From assembly GCF_002109385.1 (NCBI RefSeq), contig NZ_CP020814.1, forward strand, positions 2,131,501-2,195,500: a DNA stretch of 64,000 nucleotides, written 5' to 3'. Both the position numbers and the translations under genes were made by a program. Shown piece after piece: positions 54,737 to 60,896 of the stretch. Under the pieces are notes generated by a model. It was not told the origin of the DNA and made no database searches. It saw only the letters and a list, made by a program, of their open reading frames with translations. Each line of letters begins with the position of its first letter. Positions within the stretch are counted from its first letter, which is position 1. The stretch is from Halalkalibacter krulwichiae. GTDB taxonomy: Bacteria; Bacillota; Bacilli; Bacillales; Bacillaceae_D.

Positions 54737-55972
54737 ATGAAAAAACGAGTCGTAGTAACAGGAATTGGAGCCGTTACTCCTTTAGGGAATGATGTTAACA
54801 CAACTTGGGCAAATCTAACAGCAGGTGTTTCTGGAATCGGACCACTATCTAGAGTAGATGCTGACCAATTTAATGTGAAAGTAGCTGGGGAAGTAAAAGA
54901 ATTTACCCCTGGTGATTATATGGACAGTAAGGAAGCAAGAAGAATGGCACGTTTTACCCATTTTGCTATTGCTGCAAGTAAAATGGCTGTTGAAAATGCT
55001 GAACTTAAAATTGGTGAAAACATACAATCAGAACGTGTTGGGGTATGGATAGGTTCTGGGATTGGTGGTTTAGATGCATTTGAGGAGCAGCACAAAAAAT
55101 TCTTAAACAAAGGACCAAAAAGAGTAAGCCCATTTATCATTCCAATGTTAATTCCTGATATGGCATCAGGTCGTGTTTCGATAGAGCTTGGGGCCAAGGG
55201 GATAAACAATTGTTCGGTCACAGCGTGTGCCTCTGGAGCAAATTCAATTGGCGATGCATTCCGAGTAATACAAAATGGCGAAATGGATGCAATGATTACA
55301 GGAGGAGCGGAAGCGGCGATTACTGATATGACCATTGCTGGTTTTGCTAATATGACAGCACTATCTACGAATCCAGATCCGAAAACGGCTAGTCGTCCTT
55401 TTGACCAAAATCGTGATGGATTCGTGATTGCAGAGGGATCAGGGGTATTAATTCTAGAAGAATTAGAACATGCTCTTACACGCGGGGCCCGTATTTATGG
55501 TGAAATTGTAGGATATGGTGCTACTGGTGATGCTCATCATATTACAACACCAGCACCAGACGGTGAAGGTGGGCAGCGTGCGATGAAATCAGCTTTAAAA
55601 GATGCAAATCTAGCACCTGAACAAATTGACTATATAAATGCTCATGGAACTAGTACTCATTACAATGATTTATATGAAACTTCAGCAATCAAAGAAGTAT
55701 TTGGAGAGCATGCTTATCAATTAGTTGTCAGCTCGACGAAATCGATGACAGGCCACCTGCTCGGTGCTGCAGGAGCAATTGAGGCTATTTTTTCTCTTTT
55801 GGCTATTCGAGATAGTGTCGTACCACCGACGATCAATTACGAAACTCCGGATCCAAGTCTCGATTTAGATTATGTTACAAACGGGGCGAAAGAAATGCAA
55901 GTTGATGCTGTATTATCGAATTCATTAGGATTTGGTGGCCATAATGTATCATTAATCTTTAAAAAATACTAA
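54737..55972 (+). CDS. fabF: 3-oxoacyl-ACP synthase II
   Basis: 411 aa KAS II. Catalytic Cys in [16 protein letters not shown], His in [10 protein letters not shown] and Lys/His in [18 protein letters not shown]. It elongates acyl-ACP. ATG 54737 follows GAAGGGGAGAG; an in-frame TTG at 54719 sits upstream of that site. It lies 29 bases after fabH and ends at a terminator. Confidence 0.96.
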
Positions 55973-55980
55973 AATGGATG

Positions 55981-56011
55981 AGAGAAAAGGTGACTACCTT
56001 TTCTCTTTTTT
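55981..56011 (+). terminator. Terminator of fabH-fabF
   Basis: AGAGAAAAGGT pairs with ACCTTTTCTCT around GACT, followed by TTTTT. Confidence 0.93.
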
Positions 56012-56123
56012 GTTAATTTGGCTTATCTTTAATACAATAATCATAGCAACAAATTGTAAGGAAACACCCTTTTTTACATCGAAAAAGAAAGTGTTAAAAA
56101 GTAAAATAAAGGAGAGAGTTCCT

Positions 56124-56786
56124 ATGTATATCGATTATAAAATGTTAACGAAACAAAGTAATCACCTTGAAACCATTTCATTAGGGTTAGGTTGATTTTG
56201 GGGACCAGATGCCCGGTTCGGACATCTCAAAGGAGTCATTCGTACACGTGTTGGGTATGCAGGAGGTACATTGCAAAATCCTATATACAGACAAATGGGC
56301 GATCATACCGAAACAATTGAGATAGATTTTGATTCTTCGGTGCTTAAGTTAGAAGAACTATTTGATATTTTTTGGCAGAGTCATAATGCATTGAAAGTGA
56401 ATCATTATCGTGGGAAACAATATCAATCAATGATTTTATTTAGAAACGATGAACAAGCACAAGTCGCCCTTGCAAGTAAAAGAAAGTGGGAAGATAAATT
56501 GAACGGAACGATCCAAACAGAGATTGCTCCTCTAATTACTTTTTACCTAGCAGAGGAAAGGCATCAAAAATATTATCTTAAACGTTTTCCCAAAGCATAT
56601 TTTGAATTAATGAGTTATTTTCCCACATTTTGCGAATTTGTAGACTCTACATTAGTTGCAAGGTTAAATGGATTTGTAAGAGAGTATGGCTCATTGCAGT
56701 CTATTAAAATGGAATTAGCAGAATGGCCTTTAAGACAAAAAGAAAAAGGCGCTATAGAAAGTATGATTCAGTCTTTAAAGTGGTAA
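56124..56786 (+). CDS. msrA: MsrA peptide-methionine sulfoxide reductase with UGA at the catalytic Cys (candidate selenoprotein)
   Basis: One reading frame of 220 codons is interrupted only by TGA at 56193-56195 (codon 24). The context is ISLGLG-TGA-FWGPDARFGHLKGV; MsrA proteins have GCFWG here, so TGA takes the place of the nucleophilic Cys. The rest is intact MsrA: RTRVGYAGGTLQNPIYRQMGDHTETI, DIFWQSHN and a 120-residue C-terminus. AAAGGAGAG lies before ATG 56124. A hairpin suited to a bacterial SECIS lies 19 nt downstream of the UGA. Selenocysteine MsrAs are known in other bacteria (Alkaliphilus) and algae. The alternative is a Cys-to-stop nonsense mutation; no sel genes lie in the window to decide. 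Confidence 0.75.
56207..56227 (+). promoter_or_regulatory. SECIS-like hairpin in msrA
   Basis: AGATG (56207-56211) pairs with CATCT (56223-56227); after a C-A mismatch CC pairs with GG. The apical loop is GGTTC, with GG starting 19 bases after the TGA, within the usual 16-37. The loop is encoded by the GCC CGG TTC GGA codons, G/C-rich for this AT-rich genome. Confidence 0.6.
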
Positions 56787-56799
56787 TTAAAGAGAGAAA

Positions 56800-56840
56800 G
56801 GGCTTCTCACAAGGTCAATACGAGAACTTGTGAGGAGCCC
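56800..56840. terminator. Convergent bidirectional terminator (msrA / narK)
   Basis: GGGCTTCTCACAAG pairs with CTTGTGAGGAGCCC (one mismatch). Confidence 0.85.
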
Positions 56841-56849
56841 CTATTGTAA

Positions 56850-58169
56850 TTAAGATGCTTTTTGTTTTGATTCAATCATAGTGTCACACGCAACTTCTGC
56901 ATTTTTCCGCTGATAGTAGTACCAATTTAAAACAATAGATAGTACGTAGAACCCAATAAAGAGATACAAAGCTGTTACTGGTGTTCCGGTAGCAGAAGAT
57001 GACCAACCGAAAAGTTGTGGAATAAAAAATGACCCATACGCGGCAAAAGCAGCAGTAAATCCAAGTACAGGTGCAGCTTCTTTAACAGGAAAGATAAGTG
57101 GGATCATCTGGAATGTTGAACCTGATCCCATTCCGGCTGCAATAAATAGAATTAAAAATGAAATGAGAAAGCCTGCAAAATGTTGTTGACCACTAAAATA
57201 GATAACTGCTAGAGCGCCAAGACTCATCGTTATAAGGACCAAAGTAGTAACTTTAGCGCCACCAAATTTATCAGAAACCCACCCACCAACAGGACGGAAA
57301 GCCGCGGCTAGAAAAGCTCCTAAAAAGGCTAACGCAACATACTCAGGAAATTGTGATCTTAATAGTAATGGGAAGGCTGCCCCATATCCAATGAATGAGC
57401 CAAAAGTAGCAACATAGAGAATGGTCATGATCCATGTATGCTTTCGTTTCACAATAATAAATTGGTCTTTTACAGATTGTTTTGCAGTTGGGAGATTATC
57501 CATTCCGAAATAAGCAACGATTGTCATGATAATAATTGGGACAACCCAGATAAATGCAGCGTTTTGTAACCAAATCTCTTGACCATTGGCTAAGACTTGA
57601 CCTTCACCACCGATAAAGGCAAACGTTCCAACTGTGATAATTAACGGAGTAACAAATTGAACAACTGAAACCCCCATATTTCCTAATCCGCCATTAATTC
57701 CTAGAGCTGTTCCTTTCTCTTTTTTAGGGAAGAAGAAACTAATATTTGCAAGAGCGGAAGAGAAATTACCTCCACCAAGTCCGCATAATGCCGCAAGAGT
57801 TAACATAAGCCAATATGGTGTTTCTGGATTTTGAACCGCAAACCCAATTCCAATTGTTGGCAGTAATAATATACCTGTTGAAAAGACGACCCAGTTTCGA
57901 CCACCAAATTTGCCAACAGCAAAAGTGTAAATAAATCGTAATGAGGCACCAACTAAACCAGGTACTGCTGCTAAAGTGAACAGCTGTTCATCTGTAAATT
58001 GAAAACCGATATCATTTAAGCGGACAGCAACTACGGACCATATTTGCCATACAACAAAAGCAAGTAATAATGTTGGAACTGAGATCCATAAATTTCTTCG
58101 AGCGTGTCTTTTTCCTTCCCTTTCCCAAAACTCTTGATTTTCTGGCTGCCATTCTGTTATTCGTGCCAT
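56850..58169 (-). CDS. narK: NarK-type nitrate/nitrite MFS transporter
   Basis: 439 aa, 12 membrane segments. The nitrate signature is visible (ALCGLGGGNFSSALANISFFF and the second AALNGG-like GINGGLGNMGVSVVQ). It imports nitrate and/or exports nitrite. ATTGGAGGAATTATC precedes the ATG. It is divergent from nirB, each with its own Fnr box; the narK box is at 58272-58287. Confidence 0.92.
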   Translation of the reverse strand: MARITEWQPENQEFWEREGKRHARRNLWISVPTLLLAFVVWQIWSVVAVRLNDIGFQFTDEQLFTLAAVPGLVGASLRFIYTFAVGKFGGRNWVVFSTGILLLPTIGIGFAVQNPETPYWLMLTLAALCGLGGGNFSSALANISFFFPKKEKGTALGINGGLGNMGVSVVQFVTPLIITVGTFAFIGGEGQVLANGQEIWLQNAAFIWVVPIIIMTIVAYFGMDNLPTAKQSVKDQFIIVKRKHTWIMTILYVATFGSFIGYGAAFPLLLRSQFPEYVALAFLGAFLAAAFRPVGGWVSDKFGGAKVTTLVLITMSLGALAVIYFSGQQHFAGFLISFLILFIAAGMGSGSTFQMIPLIFPVKEAAPVLGFTAAFAAYGSFFIPQLFGWSSSATGTPVTALYLFIGFYVLSIVLNWYYYQRKNAEVACDTMIESKQKAS

Positions 58170-58476: not shown

Positions 58477-60896
58477 ATGAAGAAAGAAAAATTAGTAATG
58501 GTCGGAAATGGAATGGCTGGTGTTCGTGTTATAGAAGAAATATTAAAAGTGAATCCTGATTTATATGACATTACAATATTTGGGGCAGAACCACATCCAA
58601 ACTACAACCGAATTAAGCTATCAAATATATTGCAAGGTGAAGCGAGTTTTAAAGAAACAATTATAAACGATTGGCAATGGTACGAATCGAATGACATTAC
58701 TCTCTATACTGGGGAATCGGTTGTTGATATAGATACGAACGCGCAACATGTAATATCAGAGCATGGAACAAAAGTAGATTACGATAAATTAATTCTAGCA
58801 ACAGGGTCAGTACCTTTTATCTTACCTGTGAAGGGAGCTGACAAAAAAGGTGTAATAGGGTTTCGTGATATAGCTGATTGTGAACAAATGATCAAAGTGG
58901 CAAAACAGTTTAAGAAAGCTGTTGTAATTGGTGGGGGTTGCTTGGGTTAGAAGCAGCAAAGGGGCTTATTCATTTAGGTATGAAAGTGGATGTAGTTCAT
59001 TTGCCGGAGCATTTAATGGAAAGACAGTTAGATACGATTGCCGCGACAATGCTAAGAAATGAATTAGAAAAACAAGGTATGAATTTCCTGATGGAAAAAG
59101 TTACAGTCGAGTTATTAGGATCAGAACGTGTGACAGCTGTTCGCTTTAAAGATGGAACAGAAATTGAAGCTGATTTAGTTGTCATGGCAGCTGGTATTAA
59201 ACCAAACGTAGCAATTGCTGAAAGAAATGGTCTTTTTGTAAACCGTGGAATAGTCGTCAATGATTTTATGGAAACATCCGTTCCTAATGTCTATGCGATT
59301 GGAGAATGCGCAGAACATCGAGAAATTGTCTATGGGTTAGTAGCGCCATTGTATGAACAAGGCAAAGTATTAGCTGAACTGTTAACTGGCAACAAAGGAA
59401 AAGGATATGAAGGGTCTATTACAGGGACTCAATTAAAAGTTTCAGGAATTGATCTATTTTCTGCGGGAGAATTTATTGATGATCCAACCTCAAAGTCGAT
59501 CGTTGTTCATAATGAATTTGAAGGAATTTATAAAAAAGTTCAAATACGTGATAATCGCATAGTTGGAATCGTTCTATATGGCGACACAAAAGATAGCAAT
59601 CGGTTATTCAGAATGTTGATGAATAAAGATGATGTGAAAGATCTCATTTCGGTTTCTTTCTTACAAAAAACAGGTCAGGACGAAGCGAATGACATTGCTT
59701 CAATGACAGATGATGAGATTGTTTGTGGTTGTAATGGAATCGTTAAACAAACAATCGTCGAAGCCGTTAAAAAAGAAGGTTTGACAACTGTTGAACAAGT
59801 AGGAAGATGTACAAATGCGGGGCGTTCTTGTGGACGTTGTAAGCCTGTCATTCAAGACATTCTCGAATATACGCTTGGTGCTGACTTTGATCAAACGGCT
59901 ATAAAACAAACCGTTTGTGGATGTACTACATTAAGTAGAGACGAAGTCGTTGCAGAAATTCGTGAAAAAGGACTTACAACAATTAGAGAAGTAATGAACG
60001 TCCTTGAATGGCAGAACGAAGAAGGCTGCTCAAAATGTCGTCCGGCATTAAATTACTTCCTTGGAATGGTGCACCCTGATTATATTGACGATAGGAATTC
60101 ACGCTTAGTAAATGAAAAAATGCATGCCAATATCCAAAAAGATGGGACATATTCGGTCATTCCAAGAATGTATGGAGGAATAACTTCTGCCAAGGACTTA
60201 AGAAAGATCGCAGACGTGGCAGATAAATACAATGTAGGTCTTGTGAAATTAACAGGCGGACAACGAATTGGATTATATGGATTGAAAAAAGAAGATCTAC
60301 CAGCTGTTTGGGAAGAATTGGGGATGCCTTCAGGCTATGCATACGGGAAAACATTACGAACTGTAAAAACTTGTGTTGGTGCAACATTCTGCCGGTTTGG
60401 AACTCAAGATTCAATGAGTCTGGGAATTGAACTAGAGAAAAGATTCGAACGACTTGATACCCCGCATAAAGTGAAAATGGGTGTTTCAGCTTGTCCAAGA
60501 AATTGTGCAGAGGGTGGGATTAAGGATGTTGGTGTTGTTGGTTTAGACGGTGGTTGGGAAATATATGTTGGAGGTAATGGAGGTACTGATCTCCGAGCTG
60601 GCGATCTTTTATGTAAAGTGAAGACTGAAGATGAAGTATTTGAATTAACAGGTGCCTATTTACAATATTATCGTGAAACAGCATTGTATTTAGAACGCAC
60701 TTCACAATGGATTGAACGTGTCGGCTTAGAACATGTAAAAGAAGTTCTTGAAGACCAAGGAAAACGAAAAGAATTAAATGAGAGACTTAATAAAACGCTT
60801 GATCGTTACGAAGAGCCTTGGCAAAAAGCAATTGAGGATGAAAATATTCGTGATACGTATTACACAAAGCGTCAAGCATTTACTGTTTCTAAATAA
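58477..60896 (+). pseudogene. nirB: NADH-dependent nitrite reductase large subunit, frameshifted
   Basis: About 806 aa when joined. The first frame gives the FAD part (VMVGNGMAGVRVIEEI) and stops at 58950 after VVIGGGCLG. The second frame resumes LGLEAAKGLIHLGMKVDVVH. One base is missing in GGGGGTT at 58933-58939; restoring a G (or T) gives VVIGGGLLGLEA. Downstream are two BFD-type 2Fe-2S motifs (CGCNGIVKQ...CGRCKP and CGCTTLSRDE...CSKCRP), then the sulfite/nitrite reductase half with TCVGATFCRFGTQDS and SACPRNCAEGG binding siroheme and 4Fe-4S. Reduces nitrite to ammonium. Fnr control suggests an anaerobic role. The break is likely a sequence error. Confidence 0.88.

Follow-up and report, generated by a model that had tools for sequence, protein, structure and literature searches.

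Does the single UGA that interrupts an msrA frame of Halalkalibacter krulwichiae mark a broken gene, or does it encode the catalytic residue of a selenoprotein? The gene lies in a 64,000-nucleotide stretch of DNA (the window) from a genome assembled as one contig of 4,610,863 bases; its features are listed in Table 1. We consider it very probable that the gene encodes a selenocysteine (Sec)-containing MsrA without a conserved resolving Cys, with UGA codon 24 decoded by way of SelB, tRNA-Sec, and a SECIS hairpin. The evidence consists of the frame, the conservation of the UGA, the Sec genes of the genome, a hairpin constrained in its codons, and homology to MsrAs of solved structure. As the initial annotation held, the frame is open over 220 codons apart from one TGA in place of the catalytic Cys (context GLG*FWGPDARFG, with the stop as an asterisk), and it is preceded by a good ribosome site that matches AAGGAGG in six of seven bases. 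The protein read through this codon scores 137.8 bits against PF01625 (cut-off 23.7) and 120.5 bits against TIGR00401 (cut-off 108.1). The database proteins of this genome and of Alkalihalobacillus deserti (P0001 and P0024) start 3′ of the UGA, so that a Sec-msrA gene is readily mistaken for a fragment. The genome also encodes two MsrAs with GCFW and one short degenerate MsrA. The 125-residue MsrA-like protein at L029:1383-1760 carries GASEFF close to its N terminus and lacks GCFW.

Table 1. Features of the msrA locus in window coordinates, and of the MsrA-MsrB fusions beside related UGA genes in coordinates of their own loci
Feature	Position	Strand	Remarks
msrA gene	56124..56786	+	220 codons plus stop, single in-frame UGA; PF01625 and TIGR00401 when read through
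AAGGAG ribosome binding site	56109..56114	+	9 nt 5′ of ATG
UGA codon 24, catalytic position of GCFWG	56193..56195	+	putative Sec codon
Catalytic MsrA domain, residues 18-154	56175..56585	+	Pfam PMSR match
C-terminal region, residues 155-220	56586..56783	+	homologous to the C. oremlandii MsrA helical domain
Candidate bacterial SECIS hairpin	56207..56227	+	apical loop GUU 56216-56218; comparative support, weak in single sequence
MsrA-MsrB fusions	L030:3168-4124, L031:3164-3853, L036:3145-4098, L042:3124-4107, L043:3170-4159, L047:3132-4085

The state of the catalytic codon in relatives was read from a scan of genome contigs, which covered the best 80 of 238 relatives and yielded 79 loci. The codon is TGA in 15 of the 79 named relatives and TGT or TGC in the other 64; none of the aligned frames contains another stop, each TGA locus having that single one. 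These 15 loci belong to Alkalihalobacillus, Halalkalibacter, Bacillus, Evansella, Litchfieldia, and Sediminibacillus, and the nearest named relatives of the window gene are those of Alkalihalobacillus deserti and Halalkalibacter akibai, which makes it likely that the host is an alkaliphile. Genomes of the genus, family, and order form further sets that overlap with one another and with the named relatives. An MsrA match with a single TGA is found in seven of 13 genus genomes. Nine of 41 family genomes have an orthologue (E 1e-50), and all nine carry one TGA, each in G*FW. Of the 25 genomes with an orthologue among 199 drawn from the order, 23 show one TGA (counted wherever it falls in the gene) and two show none.

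With TGA at the equivalent codon in 15 of the 79 loci and no further stop, the position of the UGA is far beyond chance. This bears out the earlier argument that a random nonsense mutation would hardly fall on the catalytic Cys, and the alignment of homologues that had been proposed to find U or C at this codon shows both states. The further decay of msrA that had been envisaged in relatives is absent: the frames of the 15 that share the UGA stay open beyond it. Past the UGA, dN/dS is 0.18 and 0.13 in two pairs of close relatives; a third pair is saturated. The msrA tree requires at least three changes between U and C, and the data neither establish a single UGA clade nor reject it (AU P = 0.245). 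Sediminibacillus massiliensis has tandem UGA msrA copies (L102:2534 and L102:3828) separated by an unread base, perhaps through duplication in the assembly.

The search of the genome for selA, selB, selC, and selD that the initial annotation called for returned SelB (354.8 bits; cut-off 242.25), SelD (405.7 bits; cut-off 125), and tRNA-Sec (57.7 bits; gathering threshold 47; tRNA-SeC(tca) according to ARAGORN); SelA was also found (399.9 bits; cut-off 267.9), although its gene falls into two frames in the assembly. The selD gene has an in-frame UGA of its own, in AG*GCK (L026:4577-4579), and is likely a second selenoprotein gene of this genome. The frame of selA (L026:3090-4079; G000:C1) breaks at a run of G. 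Breaks at runs of G are also seen in two genes that we take to be hutU and nirB: a urocanase gene near selA (L026:14323-15849) loses its frame near the 3′ end, and a nitrite reductase gene of the window (58477-60896) is split into two overlapping frames. An Fdh-alpha-like gene (G000:C1:2228939-2230983) likewise lies in two adjacent pieces, by their coordinates mutually out of frame, and with no TGA inside. Taken together, these broken genes suggest that the selA break is an assembly error, a real loss being possible as well. Among the Fdh-like proteins of the genome, which number six matches, none is over the cut-off and none has an internal stop.

SelA is over the cut-off in 12 of the 13 genus genomes and is a single open frame in 10 of these 12; it is split in the genome studied here and in one other (G059). 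The genome without SelA (G054) is also without the UGA gene, as are five SelA-positive genomes. Over the wider set, SelB and tRNA-Sec both exceed their cut-offs in all 15 UGA genomes versus four of 34 Cys genomes (P = 2.5e-9, Fisher's test, kinship ignored), the Sec search having covered 34 of the 64 Cys loci and left out L070 and 29 others. A kinship-aware test of UGA with SelB has just one to three pairs, which is too few. The presence of the sel genes, the sharing of the UGA by relatives, and the occurrence of SelB and tRNA-Sec in every UGA genome all support the original proposal that the UGA is read as Sec.

The candidate SECIS element was described at the outset as a 21-nt hairpin with GG at the start of an apical loop 19 nt past the UGA. 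The hairpin is present, AGAUG(C)CCG[GUU]CGG(A)CAUCU, with a C-A mismatch, but its loop starts 20 nt past the UGA and is GUU rather than GG, closed by a G-C pair. As evidence for a SECIS it is weak in the single sequence (z = −1.71; 11 of 200 shuffles fold as well, and 18% of synonymous recodings pair equally many bases), and a 58-nt segment folds with a different pairing (z = +0.68); its conservation across the 16 UGA genes (that of the window and 15 relatives) is what sustains it. In these genes the hairpin equivalent to 56208-56226 fills 120 of 128 cells (93.8%), versus 27%–50% with its 3′ side slid, and a mean of 7.5 of the eight pairs is formed, against 4.3 in Cys genes. In recoding tests, which count related genes as independent, 120 cells are reached by none of 2000 synonymous recodings and the summed energy by none of 500.

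The hairpin is thus kept across the 16 genes by synonymous codon choice, as codon counts that likewise treat related genes as independent indicate. Where UGA genes have Arg at the loop, it is CGG in 12 of 12 cases; the corresponding figures are 20 of 174 for Arg codons farther 3′ in those genes and four of 18 for Arg codons at the same place in Cys genes. The stem Gly is GGG in 12 of 16 (24 of 164 later), and Phe is TTC in 14 of 16 (22 of 128 later), although Cys genes too favor TTC there (42 of 64). Covariation is slight: A single pair has both of its bases changed, and the covariation score is equaled or exceeded in 28 of 500 shuffles. RNAalifold, given the 58-column alignment, prefers a different fold in which the UGA itself is paired; the pairs of the named hairpin were tallied directly, before the RNAalifold result was known.

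According to the portion of a 2026 review that we consulted (PMC13188914), the bSECIS model has a loop of 3-9 nt with G in the first two places, a stem of 4-16 bp, a spacing of 16-37 nt, and an MFE of at most −7.5. The window hairpin agrees with this model in loop, stem, and spacing, but its energy is borderline, −7.0 bare and −7.6 with flanks. This generic model is passed by 12 of the 16 UGA genes (one via another hairpin), the window gene lying outside the 12 on bare energy, and also by 22 of 64 Cys genes. The selD gene has a hairpin of its own (L026:4605-4623; 8 bp, z = −4.36) with a GUU loop 33 nt past the UGA, and this is separate support for a GUU-type signal. Four Cys msrA genes (L048, L077, L079, and L100) form seven of the eight pairs, possibly as a relic SECIS or by chance. 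A search of 55900-57100 with Rfam gave two matches far below the gathering threshold, which we took as chance.

Could the gene nevertheless simply be broken, by a nonsense mutation or a sequencing error, while other MsrAs of the genome do the work? The two GCFW proteins encoded elsewhere and the further broken frames in this assembly lend this some color, yet a single sequencing error cannot account for the same codon being hit in several independent genomes, and the same UGA is found in 15 of 79 named relatives and in all nine family orthologues with no further stop. We regard this explanation as very unlikely, and a pseudogene reading of msrA was rejected because the UGA is conserved in relatives. 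An altered code, with UGA read as Trp or another ordinary amino acid, is less credible still. A metagenomic homologue (P0002) does have W at this place, perhaps through translation of TGA with another code; however, relatives without TGA have Cys codons alone (64 of 64), and the genome holds SelB and a tRNA-Sec with the anticodon tca.

The least improbable of the alternatives, though we give it little credence, concerns the strain rather than the family: The gene would belong to the Sec family, but the protein would not be made here since SelA is truly broken. The selA gene is split in the assembly and is likewise split in G059. Set against this, the break falls at a run of G like those of the hutU-like and nirB-like genes, which suggests an assembly error; selA is one open frame in most SelA-positive genomes of the genus; and the msrA frame past the UGA is still open. 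Under the selenoprotein reading that we prefer, SelD and a working SelA would provide selenophosphate and Sec-tRNA, and the UGA at codon 24 would be read as Sec by SelB and Sec-tRNA(Sec), directed by the SECIS hairpin with its loop 20 nt downstream. The selenolate at residue 24 would then reduce methionine-S-sulfoxide, and the enzyme would be recycled by an external thiol reductant that may resemble glutaredoxin, as in Clostridium oremlandii.

In six of the 15 UGA loci (L030, L031, L036, L042, L043, and L047) the next gene is an MsrA-MsrB fusion that overlaps the end of the UGA gene or sits at most 40 bases past it; no such fusion was seen adjoining the window msrA. Both domains are confirmed by Pfam in the five complete fusions, which keep the MsrB Cys motif. 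In all six the MsrA half has another residue in place of its catalytic Cys, namely His in five and Pro in L043. GCFW is present in 118 of the best 120 (of 7999) homologues listed for the L030 fusion, and His in two, of which one is the query; the same His form is seen in four of nine family loci, which are probably in part the same genomes. It is conceivable, if rather less than an even bet, that in part of these Bacillaceae the selenoprotein MsrA took over S-sulfoxide reduction from the MsrA half of the adjacent fusion, the dead half being kept for substrate or partner binding. On such a takeover, the lack of the catalytic Cys in the MsrA half and the retained Cys motif of the MsrB half would make the two genes one repair unit.

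Sec-MsrA as such is already known; the present case very probably adds a group of them in Bacillus-like bacteria. The consulted portion of the 2026 review places Sec-MsrA in certain bacteria with the motif GUFWG/H (PMC13188914), and the words Bacillus, Bacillales, Bacillota, Bacilli, and Bacillaceae are absent from its main text. In the excerpts used here, a 2006 survey credits Bacillales with three selenoproteins, each from a different family, and includes Syntrophobacter fumaroxidans as having an MsrA selenoprotein (PMC1794560). As far as the excerpts of the cited papers go, Sec-MsrA was characterized from an anaerobic clostridium, and they do not place Sec-MsrA in Bacillales. Among the literature titles and abstract openings listed, none reports Sec-MsrA in Bacillaceae; a report elsewhere is possible. 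The plasmid collection gave no match. Ordinary gene finding cuts a Sec-msrA gene short at its UGA "stop." Within the family, related hosts carry one enzyme in either a Sec or a Cys form, and the neighboring MsrA-MsrB without its catalytic Cys makes the reason for Sec retention testable.

The best PDB matches of the window protein are 4lwj, 4u66, 7c13, 4lwm, 4lwl, and 4lwk (E 1e-50 to 1e-51), which we take to be structures of C. oremlandii MsrA (CoMsrA), as name and numbering fit. The alignment with 4lwj spans query residues 17-216 and includes the C-terminal region, so by homology the helical domain is predicted to be present in the window MsrA. That Sec-containing MsrAs exist, as the initial annotation stated, is exemplified by this enzyme. 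In the sections of its description consulted, CoMsrA has one Sec and no Cys, Sec raises its activity 20-fold over that of the Cys form, it requires its C-terminal helical domain, and it is reduced by glutaredoxin and not by thioredoxin (PMC4333827). The six active-site residues named for CoMsrA in those sections (Tyr47, Glu55, Gln89, Tyr90, His137, and Tyr140) match invariant columns of a 21-row alignment.

The window MsrA resembles that of Clostridium (Alkaliphilus) oremlandii, as described there, in having UGA for the catalytic Cys of GCFWG, in lacking a conserved resolving Cys, and in a C-terminal region aligned to residue 216 with E about 1e-51. No Cys follows the UGA in seven of the 16 UGA proteins, and the other nine have no such position in common. 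The two differ in that the CoMsrA host is an anaerobe whereas the present host belongs to the Bacillaceae, and in that CoMsrA, by the same account, is without any Cys, whereas the window protein has a single Cys, whose position is not common to the set. The Cys long MsrAs of Paenibacillus, Planococcus, Domibacillus, and their kin are of the same family and length and 43%–53% identical, but have TGT or TGC at the catalytic codon (64 of 64), and 30 of the 34 genomes searched are without SelB and tRNA-Sec over the cut-offs. The SelD encoded in the window's own genome is an unrelated enzyme, and its loop lies 33 nt past the UGA rather than 20 as in msrA; what the two genes share is an active-site UGA followed by a hairpin with a GUU loop.
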